Assembly (NCBI GenBank): GCA_021813445.1
Contig: JAKAKP010000100.1
Location: 1 to 44,486 of the forward strand
DNA: 44,486 nt
Reading direction: 5' to 3'
Source of the DNA: Deltaproteobacteria bacterium
GTDB lineage: Bacteria > Desulfobacterota > Desulfobaccia > Desulfobaccales > 0-14-0-80-60-11
The notes below the pieces were generated by a model. It did not search any database. It worked only from the letters and a program-made list of their open reading frames with translations, and had not been told where the DNA came from. Shown here one piece after another: positions 31,632 through 38,734 of the stretch. The position numbers and the translations under genes are program-made. Every line of letters starts with the position of its first letter. Positions within the stretch are counted from its first letter, which is position 1.

Positions 31632-32003
31632 TCAATAAACTGCAGTGGATTTGGCGCTGGTCATTTCGATTACTAACCTACCGGCCTTAACCAATTCTGT
31701 TCCCTGGATCAAGTCAGCCTGACTGATCTTGCGCTCCTCGAGGCAGGGAATTCAGCACAAAAACTTGCCGCCGTTGGCCACGTAGCTGTCCACCAGCGTC
31801 TTGAGAGGGGTGAGGCCGGGGAAAGTGATGTTGTCGGCGTATCCCTTTTTGGCCAGAAGTACTCCGTTCGCCTGCAGCACCACCACCGCTTCCACGTCCA
31901 TGGACTGGGCCGCGTTGGCCAGTAGCAGGGGAAAGATGGCCCGTTCCGGGTCCTCTCCCGCATGGGTGGCGATCAATACAATTTTCTCTTTTTCTTCCGC
32001 CAT
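31632..32003 (-). CDS. DsrE-family sulfur-transfer protein, candidate selenoprotein (UGA = Sec84)
   Basis: ATG 32003 follows AAGGAGGG. The frame reads a DsrE-like fold (KIVLIATHAGEDPERAIFPL, VEAVVVLQANGVLLAKKGYAD, LVDSYVANGGKFLC) and meets TGA at 31752-31754. In the same frame it continues I-P-C-LEERKISQADLIQGTELV...VY for 39 codons to TGA at 31632. The continuation matches the family (C-L-x-x-R-x-I..ADLIxGxELV.AG.LV). UGA sits at the first Cys of the CxxC, giving C83-U84-I85-P86-C87. A stem-loop begins right after the UGA. DsrE proteins pass persulfide sulfur; a selenol would be a stronger nucleophile. Alternative: a recent nonsense mutation, giving an 83-residue protein. Last gene of the hdr operon. 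Confidence 0.78.
31700..31751 (-). promoter_or_regulatory. Candidate bacterial SECIS stem-loop
   Basis: On the minus strand, starting one base after the UGA, TTCCCTG pairs with CAGGGAA (31744-31750 with 31700-31706). Inside, GATCAGTCA pairs with TGACTTGATC (one bulged U) around apical loop GGC at 31717-31719. The apical loop is 32 bases after the UGA and begins with G. This fits the general spacing reported for bacterial SECIS elements, though I cannot score it. Confidence 0.5.
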
Positions 32004-32228: not shown

Positions 32229-33182
32229 TTATCCTCCGTTGTTGACCGTGCGCCCCACCAGGCTGGCCAGGTCTTCCACCGGCAGGCCCGCCTTGAGCAG
32301 GTTGGCCAGACAGATGGGGCAAAAAGTGACCACCGGCGCGGCCGCGGCCTGCAGTTCCGCGGCTCTCCGTTCCAGGATCTCCCGGCTCAGGGCCGGGGAA
32401 ACCGACTCCGCGGGGCCGCCGCAGCAGGAGGTAAACTCGCCACAGTTCCGCACTTCCACGTACTCCAGCCCCAGGCTGCGCAGCACCTGGCGCGGCCCCT
32501 CCGCCAGCTTGAGGTATCTCCCGTAAAAGCAGGGATCGTGGAGGACCACCGGCGGCTGGCCGTTGCCGCCGCCTTCTTTGGCGAGGTGGAGTAAAGTGAA
32601 ATATGGGGTCACTTCGAAGCTTTCCCCCGTGTATTTGGGGTAGAGCTCTTTTAAGGCATAAGTAGTATGGGGGTCCACGGTGATTATTTTTTGGACGCCG
32701 TGGAGCTTTAAGGTCCGGGCTACGAAGCGGGCGTGGCGCAGGAACCCTTCCTGATCTCCCAGGTCGTAGAGCAGGATGCCGCTGTAGAAATCCATTTCCG
32801 GGTGATAGAAAAAGCCCACCTGGGATTTCTTCAGGACCCGGCAGATGGTCTGGAGGATGCCGTTAAACTTCTTCTTTTCCGCGGCGGCGGTCAGGTAATC
32901 CAGCCCCAGGCCCCGCAGGGAAGCGGGGACCAAGCGGCCCCAACGCAGGTGCTCGGCCCACGGGCTGTCCTCCAGACGCTCCAGGTAGCGGGTGGTGGCT
33001 TCAATAAAGGGAATGGCCTGGTACATCAGGCCGGTGAACAGGAGAGCGTCCCCCGGCCGCCGGGTGGAACCGCCCGCATCACGCCACCAGGTGTTGAACC
33101 GGGAGGCGGGCACTCCGAAGGGGTTCCGGGTCTGCCGGACATTGGCGGCGAGGAGGTCGATGATGTCCGTGGGCTTAAACAT
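32229..33182 (-). CDS. HdrB-like subunit with one intact CCG domain
   Basis: 317 residues. The C-terminal CCG domain is complete: HDPC218, CGEFTSC253C254GGPAES, and FC288PIC291. In HdrB such residues bind the noncubane [4Fe-4S] site of disulfide reduction. The N-terminal half keeps the fold's length but lost cysteines (FTGLMYQ where FxGCxxxY is usual). It therefore probably has one catalytic cluster instead of two. Starts inside the end of hdrC (8-base overlap), so they are translationally coupled. It should be the electron-accepting subunit for an S-S or persulfide substrate, perhaps TusA/DsrE-bound (inference). Partners are HdrC and the two HdrA-like proteins. Confidence 0.85.
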   Translation of the reverse strand: MFKPTDIIDLLAANVRQTRNPFGVPASRFNTWWRDAGGSTRRPGDALLFTGLMYQAIPFIEATTRYLERLEDSPWAEHLRWGRLVPASLRGLGLDYLTAAAEKKKFNGILQTICRVLKKSQVGFFYHPEMDFYSGILLYDLGDQEGFLRHARFVARTLKLHGVQKIITVDPHTTYALKELYPKYTGESFEVTPYFTLLHLAKEGGGNGQPPVVLHDPCFYGRYLKLAEGPRQVLRSLGLEYVEVRNCGEFTSCCGGPAESVSPALSREILERRAAELQAAAAPVVTFCPICLANLLKAGLPVEDLASLVGRTVNNGG

Positions 33183-33486
33183 GTTCGCCCCTCCGGGATT
33201 GGGCCACCACGTAACGGCGCAATCCCAGGATGAGTTCCCCGGGATTGGCCTGGCGGGGACAGGTCCGGGTGCAGAGCCCGCAGTGGAGGCAGCGCCAGAG
33301 GTCCTGGGCCTGCTGCAAGATCTGTTGTTTGGCCCCCACCTGGATGTAACGGATCATTTTCCGGGGAAAATGCTCATAGTTCAGAGGGCAGATGGCCGCG
33401 CAGGTGCCGCAGTTGAAGCACTCCAGGGCTGTATCCACGCCATAGGCTTGGAGTTCTGCAGCAAAATCAGGATTTACCAGGGCCAT
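33175..33486 (-). CDS. HdrC-like double [4Fe-4S] ferredoxin subunit
   Basis: 103 residues. Two complete CxxCxxCxxxCP motifs: Cys23, 26, 29, 33 and Cys66, 69, 72, 76. It is short and soluble, without the membrane helices that QmoC carries. HdrC passes electrons from HdrA to HdrB. The gene overlaps hdrB by 8 bases. Upstream is a ~90-base inverted repeat separating it from the winged-helix-like gene. Together with hdrB it matches the hdrBC pair that replaces qmoC in some sulfate reducers (family knowledge). Confidence 0.9.
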   Translation of the reverse strand: MALVNPDFAAELQAYGVDTALECFNCGTCAAICPLNYEHFPRKMIRYIQVGAKQQILQQAQDLWRCLHCGLCTRTCPRQANPGELILGLRRYVVAQSRRGEHV

Positions 33487-33659: not shown

Positions 33660-33989
33660 TTAGTCGACAGATTCCTGCTCTGCCTCCGGGGCTTCGGCCT
33701 GTCCCAGGCGGTAACGGAAATAACTCCCCGCCTTAGGGCCTTCCAAAATTTCGCCGTATTTCTTCATAGTAGCCACATACCAGAGGACCTGGTCCTCCGG
33801 CAGCCCCGTGGCCGCGGCCAGCTCCGGCACGGTCAGTTCCGTATCCGCGAGGCTCTCCTTGATGGCTTTCACCGCCTGCCGCTGCGCCTTTATGCGGCTG
33901 GTGGCCGCGGTAATCTGCTCCATCCGGGCCGCCTTCAATTTTTTCAGGGCCTCTTTGCCGTTATCTTGTGCCACCGTTGTTTCCGGCAT
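33660..33989 (-). CDS. Small winged-helix-like protein in the hdr operon
   Basis: 109 residues from ATG 33989 (GAGG 7 bases upstream; a TTG two codons earlier is less likely). A basic, coiled N-terminal part (KEALKKLKAARMEQITAATSRIKAQRQAVKAIKESL) leads to a helix-turn-helix-like segment (LTVPELAAATGLPEDQVLWYVATMKKYGEILEGP) and a short wing (SYFRYRL). The C-terminus is acidic. It has no cysteine. It could bind DNA as a local regulator, or be an adapter protein. Being between hdrA and hdrC, a link to the complex is likely. I cannot name the family. Confidence 0.7.
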   Translation of the reverse strand: MPETTVAQDNGKEALKKLKAARMEQITAATSRIKAQRQAVKAIKESLADTELTVPELAAATGLPEDQVLWYVATMKKYGEILEGPKAGSYFRYRLGQAEAPEAEQESVD

Positions 33990-34000
33990 CAGCAAACCTC

Positions 34001-34122: not shown

Positions 34123-36063
34123 TCACGCCTGTTCCAAGTACTCATCGGAGACGATCATATCCACCATGGATTCGAACTGCTTCAAGGTCCAGCCCTGGAT
34201 GTTGATGGCGTTTTCCGGGCAAACCGCCACGCAGGCGCCGCACCCCAGGCACATCACCGGGTTGACCCGGGCCCGCTGGACCTTTTGGCCCCCGACCTCC
34301 ATTTCCACCATAGCCAAGGCTCCGTCTGCCAAGCAAGCCTCTACACAGGCCCCCGTGCCGGTGCACTTGCTCAGGTCCACCTCGGCCACGAAGGGGTCCA
34401 ATTCCACGTAACCCCGGGAGAGGATGGCCGCGGCCTTGACCGCGGCCGCGCCCGCGGCCGCACAGGCCTCCCCCACGCCAAAGGGGGCCTGGCAGGTGCC
34501 GGCCAGCAGGATGCCAGCCACGGATAGCTCCACGGGCCGCAGCTTGGGATGCACCTCCTGGAGAAAGCGGTCCGCGCCCACGGGGATCTTCATCTTCTCC
34601 ACCAGATCGGAGATGTTATTGGGCTCCTGGCCCACCGCCAGCACCACTAGGTCCACCGGCACCTCCAGTTCCTCTCCGAAGGTCAGGACGTCTTTCACCC
34701 GGACCAGCAAGGGCGAACCTTTGGCATCGGGATTCTGGAGAATCTGCGGCTCTTCCCCGGCTTCGAAGCGGAAAAATAAAACCTGGTTGGCGGCCGCGCG
34801 GGTGTAGAGTTCCTCCTGACCCCGGCCGTAAGTGCGGATGTCCCGGTAAAAATCAAAGAATTTTGTCTGCGGATGGCGCTCTTTGATCAGGTTGGCGGCA
34901 TGCAGGATCGCCGCACAGCAGGTGCGGGAACAATATTCGTTCAAATAGCCGCCTGGGTTCTCCTCATGAATACCCGGAATCTGGCGGCTGCCCACGCAGT
35001 GGATCAGGGCCGCGCCGCGGATGTGCCGCCCATGCAGCACCAGGGTATCCCCCGCCGCCGGGGCCGCGGCCAAGGCCCGGATAAATTCCGGCAGGGTGAC
35101 CACTTCGGGGAAATCCTTGTAACCGTATTCCCCCTGGCGCGGTTGGTAGGGCCGCATGCCCGTGGCCAGGATGATGACCCCGGCCTCCAGGTCGATCTCT
35201 TCCCGGCTTTCCGGGATGGCCGCGGGCATGAGACCCACAAAGGGCACGTATTCTCCCGGGCCGCAGCCGGATTGGCTCAATCTTTCCAATTTCTCTGAAT
35301 ATTCTGCACTTTCCGGGGATGTCCGGGTAATTTTCAGCTTAAAATTGCCGATGTAGCCCTCAAAACCCTCCACCTGGGCGCAGGTGTAAACCGTGATCGC
35401 GGGGTGCTGCAAGACCGCGCCCGCCAGTTCACCGATGACCGCGGCTGCGGTTTCACCCCCGGGAGCCAGCTCCTGTAATTGGGCCACCTGCCCCCCCAGA
35501 AACGGGCTTTTTTCCACCAGGACCACGGCCTGGCCTCTCTCCGCCAGTTCTAGAGCGGCTTTCAGCCCGGCCATGCCACCGCCGATGACCAGGGCCCGGG
35601 GCCGCACCTCCACCCGAATAGGATCCAGGGGCTTTAGTTGGGCGGCCTTGGCCGCGGCCGCGGCCACCAGGCGGGTGGCCTTGGCGGTGGCTTCGGGGCC
35701 GTGGTGCACCCAACTCACCTGCTCCCGCAGGTTGGCATGTTCATAAACGTAGGGATTGCCTCCGGCCCGGACCAGGGCGTTGCGAAACGTGGTTTCATGG
35801 AGGCTGGGGGAGCAGGAAGCGACCACCACCCGTTCCACCAGGCCGCTTTTCAAATCCTCGATAATCATTTCCTGGCCGGGATCGGAGCACATGAACATGT
35901 TGTCCCGGGCCACCACCACCCCCGGCACCCGGCGGGCCTGGGCGCAAACCTGCTCCACGTCCACCGCGTCGGAAATATTGCCGCCGCAATGGCAGACGTA
36001 GACGCCGACTTTGCCGCCCGGCGTGGGCTCAGGTGAGGCTAGGGATTTTTTCTTTTTGACCAT
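34123..36063 (-). CDS. HdrA-like FAD/Fe-S electron-bifurcating subunit (long form)
   Basis: 646 residues. The N-terminal HdrA segment (VYVCHCGGNISDAVDVEQV, Cys24/26; MCSDPGQ) precedes an FAD domain with VIGGGMAGLKAALELAERG, a CVGSR strand and YCSRTCC. Two C-terminal ferredoxin motifs follow. The second is intact (Cys605, 608, 611, 615). The first reads C567-T-G-T570-G-A-C573-V-E-A-C577, so the second ligand is Thr, suggesting a [3Fe-4S] or altered cluster. HdrA takes electrons and may split them between ferredoxin and HdrBC. The start at 36063 has only a weak site. Flanked on both sides by ~90-base inverted repeats. Confidence 0.88.
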   Translation of the reverse strand: MVKKKKSLASPEPTPGGKVGVYVCHCGGNISDAVDVEQVCAQARRVPGVVVARDNMFMCSDPGQEMIIEDLKSGLVERVVVASCSPSLHETTFRNALVRAGGNPYVYEHANLREQVSWVHHGPEATAKATRLVAAAAAKAAQLKPLDPIRVEVRPRALVIGGGMAGLKAALELAERGQAVVLVEKSPFLGGQVAQLQELAPGGETAAAVIGELAGAVLQHPAITVYTCAQVEGFEGYIGNFKLKITRTSPESAEYSEKLERLSQSGCGPGEYVPFVGLMPAAIPESREEIDLEAGVIILATGMRPYQPRQGEYGYKDFPEVVTLPEFIRALAAAPAAGDTLVLHGRHIRGAALIHCVGSRQIPGIHEENPGGYLNEYCSRTCCAAILHAANLIKERHPQTKFFDFYRDIRTYGRGQEELYTRAAANQVLFFRFEAGEEPQILQNPDAKGSPLLVRVKDVLTFGEELEVPVDLVVLAVGQEPNNISDLVEKMKIPVGADRFLQEVHPKLRPVELSVAGILLAGTCQAPFGVGEACAAAGAAAVKAAAILSRGYVELDPFVAEVDLSKCTGTGACVEACLADGALAMVEMEVGGQKVQRARVNPVMCLGCGACVAVCPENAINIQGWTLKQFESMVDMIVSDEYLEQA

Positions 36064-36292: not shown

Positions 36293-36382
36293 CTGGCCCC
36301 TGGCCACTGACCACTAATCCCTGGCCCCTGATCCCCGGCACCTGGCCCCTGTCTTTTCCTGCTCACTGCTCACTGCTTACTG
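36293..36382. repeat. Compound 7-bp repeat array: CTGGCCC-like then CTGCTCA
   Basis: Nine degenerate heptads of CTGGCCC type in constant phase (36293-36355), then three heptads CTGCTCA, CTGCTCA, CTGCTTA (36359-36379). The stop and last codons of the short hdrA-like gene (Ser-Lys-Gln) are encoded by the array, as at 16415. Confidence 0.75.
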
Positions 36383-37659
36383 ACCAAATAGCGGGAAGCC
36401 TCCATGGCTGCGGCTCCGGCTTCGGCGATGCTGTCCACGATATCCTTGGGGCCGGCCGCGGCCCCGGCTACGAAAACTCCTTCCAGATCGGTCAGGGTGG
36501 GCGCGGTCTTAGGTTTGACGGTCTTGATGAATTTATCCCCGCCGGTGGCAAGAACGCAGCGGCCTTGGGGGTCCCAGGCCGGCACTAGGCCCAGGGAGAG
36601 GACCACCAGGTCATGCTCCGCCACCTGCACCCCGCCCCCGGCCTCCTGGGATTCGTACCTGACCCGGACCGCCCCGTTTTCGCCAGGGTCCAGGTAGGCC
36701 ACCTTGCCCTTCACAAAATTCACCCCCATGGCCTGGGCGGTTTGATAGAACTGCTCATAGCCCTTGCCGAAGGCCCGGATGTCCATGTAATAGATGGCGA
36801 TATCCGCCAGGGGTAGAGCCCCGGACAGGAGCATGGCCTCCTTGACGGCATACATGCAGCAGACCCGGGAACAGTAAGGCAGGCCCAGGCTCTGGTCCCG
36901 GGAGCCGGCGCACGGGATGAAGGCGATGGAGTCCGGCTCCATGCCGTCATAAGGCCTAAGCACCCGGTTGTAAGGGCCATGGGGCGCCAGCAACCTTTCC
37001 ATCTGCAGGGCCGTAATCACATTGGGAATCCGGCCCTGGCCATACTGGACCTTATCTTCCAGAGGAATCATTTCGAAGCCGGTGGCGATCACCGCCGTGC
37101 CTGCAGTCACCAGGAATTCTTCCGGCGCCTGGAAATAATTAACGGCCTGGGTGGGACAGACCTTGGCGCAGCGGCCGCAGAGGATGCAGTTCTCCGTATC
37201 GATCAGGGCCTTCTGGGGAATGGCGTTGGAGAAAGGCAGATAGATGGCTTTGCGGGCTGCAAAGCCCCCCTGCCCGGCGTCGGGGACCAGCACCGGACAC
37301 TGGTATTCGCACTGGCGGCAGCCGATGCATTTCTCGGTATCCACGCAGCGGGGTTTTTGAGTGATCTTGGCGATCAAAGAGCCATTTCGGCGCTCCAAAG
37401 ATTGCAGTTCGCAGAAGGTCAAAAGGGTGATGTTGGGATGATGGGCCGCGGCCGCCATCTTCGGAGTGGTGATGCAACTGGAGCAATCCAGGGTGGGAAA
37501 GACCTTGGAGAGCCGGATCATCTTGCCGCCGATGGACGCGTCTTTTTCCACCACGGCCACGGTGAAATTTTGGTCCGCGAGATTGAGAGCCGCCTCCAGA
37601 CCGGCGATCCCCCCGCCCAGGACCAGGGCGTCAAAGCGGTGATTTTGCCCGGAATTCAT
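36370..37659 (-). CDS. HdrA/QmoA-like flavoprotein with two inserted ferredoxin clusters (short form)
   Basis: 429 residues without the N-terminal HdrA extension. FAD-binding VLGGGIAGLEAAL (13-25), then C59-S-S-C62, two complete [4Fe-4S] motifs (Cys111/114/117/121 and Cys158/161/164/168), IPCAGSRD and PYCSRVCC (C263, C267, C268). The size and the order NVITALQMERLLAPHGP...RPYDG recall QmoA of sulfate reducers more than methanogen HdrA. AGGAG precedes ATG 37659. The last codons and stop lie inside a heptad repeat. QmoA passes electrons from the quinone pool to APS reductase; with HdrBC and MvhD-like partners here it may couple to a soluble electron carrier instead (inference). Confidence 0.87.
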   Translation of the reverse strand: MNSGQNHRFDALVLGGGIAGLEAALNLADQNFTVAVVEKDASIGGKMIRLSKVFPTLDCSSCITTPKMAAAAHHPNITLLTFCELQSLERRNGSLIAKITQKPRCVDTEKCIGCRQCEYQCPVLVPDAGQGGFAARKAIYLPFSNAIPQKALIDTENCILCGRCAKVCPTQAVNYFQAPEEFLVTAGTAVIATGFEMIPLEDKVQYGQGRIPNVITALQMERLLAPHGPYNRVLRPYDGMEPDSIAFIPCAGSRDQSLGLPYCSRVCCMYAVKEAMLLSGALPLADIAIYYMDIRAFGKGYEQFYQTAQAMGVNFVKGKVAYLDPGENGAVRVRYESQEAGGGVQVAEHDLVVLSLGLVPAWDPQGRCVLATGGDKFIKTVKPKTAPTLTDLEGVFVAGAAAGPKDIVDSIAEAGAAAMEASRYLVSKQ

Positions 37660-37680: not shown

Positions 37681-38106
37681 CTAAGCCGCGGCCGGCCTCT
37701 CGCTCCCCGGCGGGCCCAAAGGGGAGACCAGGTCGTGCATCTGCTGCACTTCTTTTAAAAAGGCCCGGGTGCAGACGGTACAGATGGCGGTGAGGCGCAG
37801 CCGGCGAATATCCAGTCCCCTTTCCTTCATCAGGGCGTAAACCCGGTCGATGCGCCGGGCCAGGGCGTCATAGGCCCCGGGGTAGGGAGTTTCCGCGCCG
37901 CAGGACATGATGATGATCCCGGCGATGCCTTTATCGAAGCAATCCAGATAGAAATGCTCGGGGAAAAGCACCGACGCCTTGACCCGCAGGATATAGGTGT
38001 CGGCCGGATAGCTCATATGCCCCTGCCCCGTGGCATCGGCCCCGGGATAGGCGCAGGCGTCTTCGGCCAGGATCAGGATCTTCCCTCCGGGTTTTGCGGA
38101 CCCCAT
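37681..38106 (-). CDS. MvhD/FlpD-like iron-sulfur subunit with altered cysteines
   Basis: 141 residues. Family pattern: ACAYPGADATGQGHMSYP, ILRVKAS..FPEHF, GIAGIIIMSCGAETPYPGAY and a helical C-terminus. Usual ligands at CSGRV and GDCHY are missing (A44-S-V and E72-T-P), while Cys18, 56, 69 and a C109-TV-C112 pair remain. MvhD hands electrons from a hydrogenase or formate dehydrogenase to HdrA via a [2Fe-2S] cluster. The ligand set here suggests a modified cluster or none. GAGG precedes ATG 38106; 11 bases separate it from tusA and 21 from the HdrA-like gene, a tight operon. Confidence 0.82.
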   Translation of the reverse strand: MGSAKPGGKILILAEDACAYPGADATGQGHMSYPADTYILRVKASVLFPEHFYLDCFDKGIAGIIIMSCGAETPYPGAYDALARRIDRVYALMKERGLDIRRLRLTAICTVCTRAFLKEVQQMHDLVSPLGPPGSERPAAA

Positions 38107-38117
38107 GCGGCCCTCGT

Positions 38118-38372
38118 TTACTTCTTCCGGGTCACGAAAATGCGGTCGTAACCATCTGCGGGCAGCGAGCCGATGAATTCGTGGCCCACTTTTTTGGCCC
38201 AGAGGGGAATATCCTCTTTGGTCCCCGGGTCACTGGAGAGCACTTCCAGTACTTCCCCCACCTTCACCTGGGCGATGGCCTTTTTGGCTTCCATCAGCGG
38301 CCCCGGGCAGGCGCTGCCCCGGCAATCCACCACCGCTGCGGGCTTTAACGTAGTGAGATCGGCAGTTGTCAT
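38118..38372 (-). CDS. tusA: TusA-family sulfur carrier protein
   Basis: 84 residues, the usual length. Cys22 in the CPGP motif (RGSACPGPLMEAKKAI) is the persulfide-carrying residue; Cys17 is an extra Cys, not typical. AGGAGA precedes ATG 38372. TusA proteins move sulfane sulfur between partners such as DsrE, Rhd and Hdr-like or Dsr systems. Placed second in the operon, after a CsoR/CstR-like repressor, it supports a sulfur-relay function. Confidence 0.92.
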   Translation of the reverse strand: MTTADLTTLKPAAVVDCRGSACPGPLMEAKKAIAQVKVGEVLEVLSSDPGTKEDIPLWAKKVGHEFIGSLPADGYDRIFVTRKK

Positions 38373-38437: not shown

Positions 38438-38734
38438 TTAAGAGTCAATGAACTTGGAGAGCATGTCTATGGCCTTGTCCAGCCTGGTGAAAACCCCCTC
38501 GGCGTTCTGCTCCTCCGCGGTTTGGCCGTAACATTTGACCAGATAGACCTTCAAAATCAGGTTGCAGACCGCTTTTAAAGCGGAGTGGGCGGCCCTCGCC
38601 TGGGTGAGGATCTGATCACACTCCTTATCCGCCTCGATCATGCCTTGCAGACCGCGGATTTGCCCTTCGATCTTTTTTAGACGGGAGTGAATTTCCCGCT
38701 GCATCTGCTTTTTGGTTTCTTCCGTTGGATACAT
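38438..38734 (-). CDS. CsoR/CstR-family repressor, probably persulfide-sensing
   Basis: 98 residues of the DUF156 four-helix family: SRLKKIEGQIRGLQGMIEADKECDQILTQ. Cys39 and Cys68 match the two conserved thiols, but the copper-ligand His of CsoR (three to four residues before the second Cys) is Tyr64. A Cys57 is also present. This pattern resembles CstR, which senses per- and polysulfides by a Cys-Cys trisulfide, rather than copper. The operon context (TusA, Hdr, DsrE) agrees. A perfect small palindrome (38821-38832) upstream is a candidate operator. The ribosome site (AGGTAG) is weak. Confidence 0.85.
   Translation of the reverse strand: MYPTEETKKQMQREIHSRLKKIEGQIRGLQGMIEADKECDQILTQARAAHSALKAVCNLILKVYLVKCYGQTAEEQNAEGVFTRLDKAIDMLSKFIDS

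Follow-up and report, generated by a model that had tools for sequence, protein, structure and literature searches.

A predicted DsrE-family selenoprotein encoded at the end of a tusA-mvhD-hdr operon in a deltaproteobacterium

Gene content of the locus

The window, meaning the whole 44,486-nucleotide stretch of DNA analyzed in this study (contig JAKAKP010000100.1 of the Deltaproteobacteria bacterium assembly GCA_021813445.1), contains an operon read from one strand in the order csoR-like, tusA, mvhD, two hdrA-like genes, an ORF of 111 amino acids, hdrC, hdrB and dsrE (Table 1). The CsoR-like gene is probably the first gene of this operon, judging by strand and spacing, and its product has its best NCBIfam match to the RicR model at a score below the cut-off. 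The HdrC-like protein scored 81 bits against the QmoC model, which is below that model's cut-off of 300; the two HdrA-like proteins and HdrC presumably resemble parts of Qmo. For the 111-amino-acid ORF, which has a listed start of TTG and is conserved behind the second hdrA-like gene throughout the phylum, no Pfam or NCBIfam matches were found. Neither dsrF nor dsrH was found in the operon, with dsrE being the one DsrE-family gene and the other operon proteins belonging to other families or to none.

Table 1. Coordinates of the operon genes and of the features within dsrE (window positions).
Feature	Position	Strand	Basis
CsoR/RicR-type metal- or persulfide-sensing repressor	38438..38734	minus	profile match; operon place from strand and spacing
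TusA sulfur carrier	38118..38372	minus	80 bits; conserved
MvhD/FlpD	37681..38106	minus	61 bits; conserved
Second HdrA-like flavoprotein, shorter	36370..37659	minus	profile matches; conserved in relatives
HdrA-like flavoprotein with C-terminal 4Fe-4S domain	34123..36063	minus	profile matches; conserved in relatives
111-aa ORF	33660..33995	minus	conserved in operon
HdrC-like / QmoC N-terminus-like 4Fe-4S protein	33175..33486	minus	profile matches; conserved
HdrB-like protein (CCG domain)	32229..33182	minus	adjoins dsrE in relatives too
dsrE-like predicted selenoprotein gene	31632..32003	minus	123 codons plus TGA stop, UGA84 read through; AGGAGG ribosome-binding site upstream
In-frame UGA codon 84, predicted selenocysteine	31752..31754	minus	TGA in 8/8 close orthologues; TGC/TGT in Cys homologues
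Cys87, resolving Cys of UxxC	31743..31745	minus	invariant in close alignment; >=90% in wider alignment
Codons 86-100, holding candidate bSECIS	31704..31748	minus	free of synonymous change in eight Sec orthologues
Candidate bSECIS hairpin GAUCAGUCA-GGC-UGAC-U-UGAUC	31707..31728	minus	identical in eight orthologues except loop GGC/GGU

A first-pass annotation made from the sequence alone had left unchecked whether dsrE lies in an hdr/tusA operon context, and this context is indeed present around the gene. Conserved across the phylum, the operon keeps its order in genomes encoding either selenocysteine (Sec; G013) or Cys (G403) in DsrE, and in G131 over the length read; other Cys lineages have the operon set with changes. 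In G142, G079 and G217, dsrE precedes hdrC/hdrB-like genes that are more distant. Because its genome encodes DsrA, the organism probably reduces sulfate.

An in-frame UGA codon within the DsrE domain

The dsrE gene begins with an ATG at positions 32003-32001, immediately preceded by its ribosome-binding site, and its coding sequence runs from 32003 to 31635 before a terminal TGA at 31634-31632, with 39 codons following UGA84. The read-through product scored 47.9 bits against the Pfam DsrE model (PF02635, cut-off 22.7 bits) over residues 7-112, a match that extends on both sides of the UGA. AlphaFold2 predicts a DsrE fold for it (pLDDT 91), with structure comparison Z scores of 18.1 to 3mc3, 16.4 to YchN and 14.6 to TusD; the Pfam score and the fold together place the protein in the DsrE/DsrF-like family PF02635. 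The first-pass annotation had recognized this frame and its internal UGA as codon 84; both are confirmed, and the strand is the minus strand. The truncation at codon 83 anticipated there is also seen, with the plain ORF list ending the frame at 31752, and automatic annotation would cut the selenoprotein gene short in the same way. The proposed motif Cys-Sec-Ile-Pro-Cys holds in part: Sec84-x-x-Cys87 stands, giving U84-I-P-C87 within the DsrE domain as in DsrE-like UxxC selenoproteins, and Cys83 falls outside the motif, being Ala or Val in most orthologues.

Conservation of UGA84 and Cys/Sec changes

All eight close dsrE orthologues, counting that of the window, have TGA at codon 84, and UAA or UAG occurs in none; the TAA or TAG that had been named in advance as grounds for rejecting a selenoprotein was absent from every relative seen. 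The seven other orthologues come from separate genomes of the same family; they were found by searching whole genomes and a second time in GTDB contigs. The read-through frame is far beyond chance because in all seven it remains open past TGA84 and encodes a protein 80-94% identical in amino acids to the window DsrE.

Of 395 sampled genomes of the phylum, 69 contained a DsrE match, with most close matches free of an internal stop, and about 30 homologues read among these matches carry TGC or TGT as codon 84, in line with the cysteine expected there. TGC is found at this codon in G022, a member of the same order with a DsrE 63% identical to that of the window, and in an Elusimicrobiota homologue. 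Additionally, a second, separate Sec lineage was detected in G178, whose DsrE is 48% identical with a TGA exactly at codon 84 and whose genome contains SelA; the tree requires at least two Cys/Sec changes. In a 28-sequence alignment that takes in distant members of the family, the sole invariant column is number 84, and Sec84 falls on the only cysteine that is invariant in the family. When aligned by sequence, 3mc3 and YchN likewise have a Cys opposite Sec84. Searching solved structures with a profile returned only a sub-threshold match, to the DsrE of A. vinosum; Sec84 is therefore equated with DsrE Cys78 by fold and family position rather than by a residue-level alignment.

Several other DsrE-family genes with in-frame UGA codons or differing cysteines were noted. 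Two distant DsrE genes have a UGA at position 84 (L054:1613-1924 in G345 and, by alignment, L055:1556-1879 in G391), and after each UGA comes a hairpin whose loop is GGU or GGGG; SelA is present in both genomes. Another distant DsrE (L056:1801-2124, G384) has the reversed order, CxxU, its Cys being residue 84 and its UGA codon 87; in the selenoprotein surveys consulted, DsrE is described as UxxC only (PMC1088965, PMC1794560, PMC2398784, PMC13188914). Members of the same subfamily as the dsrE described here, at L040:1501-1860 (G232) and L052, combine Cys84 (TGC) with a TGA near codon 54, a place at which close relatives within their family encode Cys. No hairpin resembling a bSECIS was detected downstream of this TGA, which may reflect gene decay, an error in sequencing or an unusual Sec site. 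The genus also has a separate second DsrE-family protein (L018:1501-1812, G002), in which the position-84 Cys is present and Cys87 is lacking.

Silent-site conservation and a candidate bSECIS element

Within codons 86-100 of the eight Sec genes, synonymous differences were seen in 0 of 384 codon comparisons, which share ancestry and so are not independent, vs. 29% outside codons 84-101. A permutation test for the quiet of silent sites in codons 85-101 gave p = 2e-4, and codons 102-123 show silent variation equal to that of the codons before the UGA. This stretch contains a hairpin whose apical loop (31717-31719) begins 32 nt after UGA84 and reads GGC except in L023, where it is GGU; a bSECIS is expected to have a small apical loop in which one of the first bases is G, and the dsrE hairpin has this form. 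As to the bSECIS for which the first-pass annotation proposed a check, a bSECIS-like hairpin is present inside the very stretch that is devoid of synonymous change. The stability of the hairpin is unremarkable, with 71 of 400 synonymous recodings being equally good in the energy test, and in three orthologues an alternative fold is better over the same 48 nt. Because the hairpin energy is not significant relative to recoding, the argument for a bSECIS rests on silent-site conservation, from which the hairpin is considered a good candidate.

Comparable hairpins follow other UGA codons: the hairpin after the SelD UGA of the same genome is stronger and has GGU as its loop, the one after an HdrA UGA elsewhere in the genome has a GGUCG loop, and the distant Sec protein at L054 has CGUCA-GGU-UGACG. 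The hairpin of G178 differs, being GAGCG-CGGGAU-CGCUC at 20 nt after its UGA. When the gene region was scanned with Rfam, neither a riboswitch nor a SECIS family was matched, and a neighboring tRNA-Arg was the only hit above threshold.

Selenocysteine machinery and genetic code

All four components of Sec insertion, whose absence would have spoken against a selenoprotein, were found in the genome (97% complete): SelA (598 bits), SelB (364 bits), SelD (371 bits) and tRNA-Sec (selC) with the anticodon TCA. SelD contains a UGA of its own, and other UGA-containing selenoprotein genes outside the operon encode three MvhD and one HdrA, each with a single in-frame TGA. The loci of these three MvhD, the HdrA and SelD are L076, L077, L074, L081 and L066; the MvhD UGA context is clearly readable only for L076, in which the UGA precedes HLGDCHY. 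Within the operon, the ORF list with TGA read through contains no internal UGA in MvhD, either HdrA, HdrC or HdrB. The dsrE gene and both operon HdrA genes terminate in TGA, indicating that there is no general reassignment of UGA; in the remaining seven Sec orthologues of dsrE the stop is TAA.

Alternative explanations

Insertion of selenocysteine at UGA84 of dsrE is, on this comparative sequence evidence, the most probable reading, at roughly 95%. Were UGA84 a real stop, the locus would encode an 83-residue truncated protein or a decaying pseudogene, which is how an ordinary gene caller treats it (ORF list stop at 31752). Such an outcome is very improbable given the same UGA, open frame and conserved downstream protein in eight genomes, the suppression of both silent and replacement changes right after UGA84, and the presence of Sec machinery in the genome. 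A genome-wide code change assigning UGA to another amino acid, e.g., Trp, found no support and can be given almost no weight: the TGA stops of dsrE and both HdrA genes contradict it, the matching residue at position 84 is Cys and not Trp, and a tRNA-Sec with anticodon TCA is present.

A different question is whether the selenoprotein carries sulfur at all, since it could instead be a redox switch, a selenol reductase or a metal/metalloid-binding protein. CsoR-type repressors can respond to metals as well as persulfides, and the operon is probably headed by a CsoR-like repressor whose best NCBIfam match, below cut-off, is RicR; the UxxC also resembles a thiol-redox pair. Against this, TusA and HdrB/C/MvhD are conserved with DsrE across the phylum, which points to sulfur and electron transfer, and a non-carrier function is accordingly regarded as rather unlikely.

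Relation to known systems

Selenoproteins of this kind are already known, since DsrE-like UxxC proteins (PF02635) were described in 2005-2006 by Zhang and Gladyshev and have appeared in surveys since 2005 (PMC1088965, PMC1794560, PMC2398784, PMC13188914); these four papers bear out the mention, in the first-pass annotation, of DsrE-like entries in selenoproteome surveys. Published members, WP_014524487.1 among them, include sequences from the Sargasso Sea and Desulfovibrio vulgaris (PMC1794560) and the GOS entries 'DsrE 1' and 'DsrE 2'. Compared by description, the window protein agrees with this family in its DsrE domain, predicted Sec in UxxC and candidate bSECIS after the UGA. In those listings the family appears without operon context, whereas the dsrE described here ends a tusA-mvhD-hdrA-hdrA-hdrC-hdrB operon. 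No description of a Sec DsrE in a tusA-mvhD-hdr operon was found in the open-licence papers searched, and the operon context is the addition over the known DsrE-like selenoproteins.

The protein shares its fold with the DsrE of DsrEFH types I and II and with TusD of TusBCD. The active residue carrying persulfide in DsrE is Cys78 in type I and Cys67 in type II, with the type II DsrE exchanging sulfur with TusA via the conserved Cys67 (PMC13293266). Unlike the DsrEFH and TusBCD systems, the operon has a single dsrE without adjoining dsrF or dsrH, a predicted Sec with a Cys three residues on, and a coupling to Hdr genes. The DsrE fold is also shared with E. coli YchN (1JX7) and Sulfolobus 3MC3, from different organisms, both of which have Cys (in YchN as CxxC) where the window protein would have Sec. 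Hdr/MvhD-type modules are likewise combined with selenoproteins in the deltaproteobacterial frhA-frhD-hdrA operons outlined in a 2026 review (PMC13188914); by comparison, Hdr and MvhD are without Sec here and DsrE is the predicted selenoprotein. The same review describes the functions of DsrE-like and most other predicted prokaryotic selenoproteins as largely uncharacterized (PMC13188914).

Proposed function and implications

In the proposed mechanism, SelB with Sec-tRNA(Sec) would read UGA84 under the direction of the candidate bSECIS hairpin just downstream, giving a 123-residue DsrE-family protein with a Sec84-x-x-Cys87 center. Sec84 could then accept sulfane sulfur that TusA delivers, holding it as Se-S, or pair with Cys87 as a selenenylsulfide, and the HdrABC/MvhD complex of the same operon would, as suggested by gene order, exchange electrons with that sulfur or disulfide. 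From gene order and fold, we infer that the DsrE selenoprotein is a sulfur-relay or thiol/selenol redox protein, and on the same basis a role in sulfur transfer appears somewhat favored. The more specific proposal, that Sec84 is the sulfur-accepting atom of a TusA to Hdr/MvhD relay, is put forward tentatively. It would give sulfate reducers a selenium-dependent sulfur-transfer step tied to flavin-based electron transfer, in which Cys and Sec have been exchanged at least twice while the operon was conserved.

The setting of this gene in a widely conserved operon of electron and sulfur transfer suggests what purpose selenium may serve in this DsrE. Natural Cys versions of the operon exist, one of them in the same order. 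Together with the operon setting, they lead directly to a hypothesis and supply Sec and Cys forms that make a matched pair.
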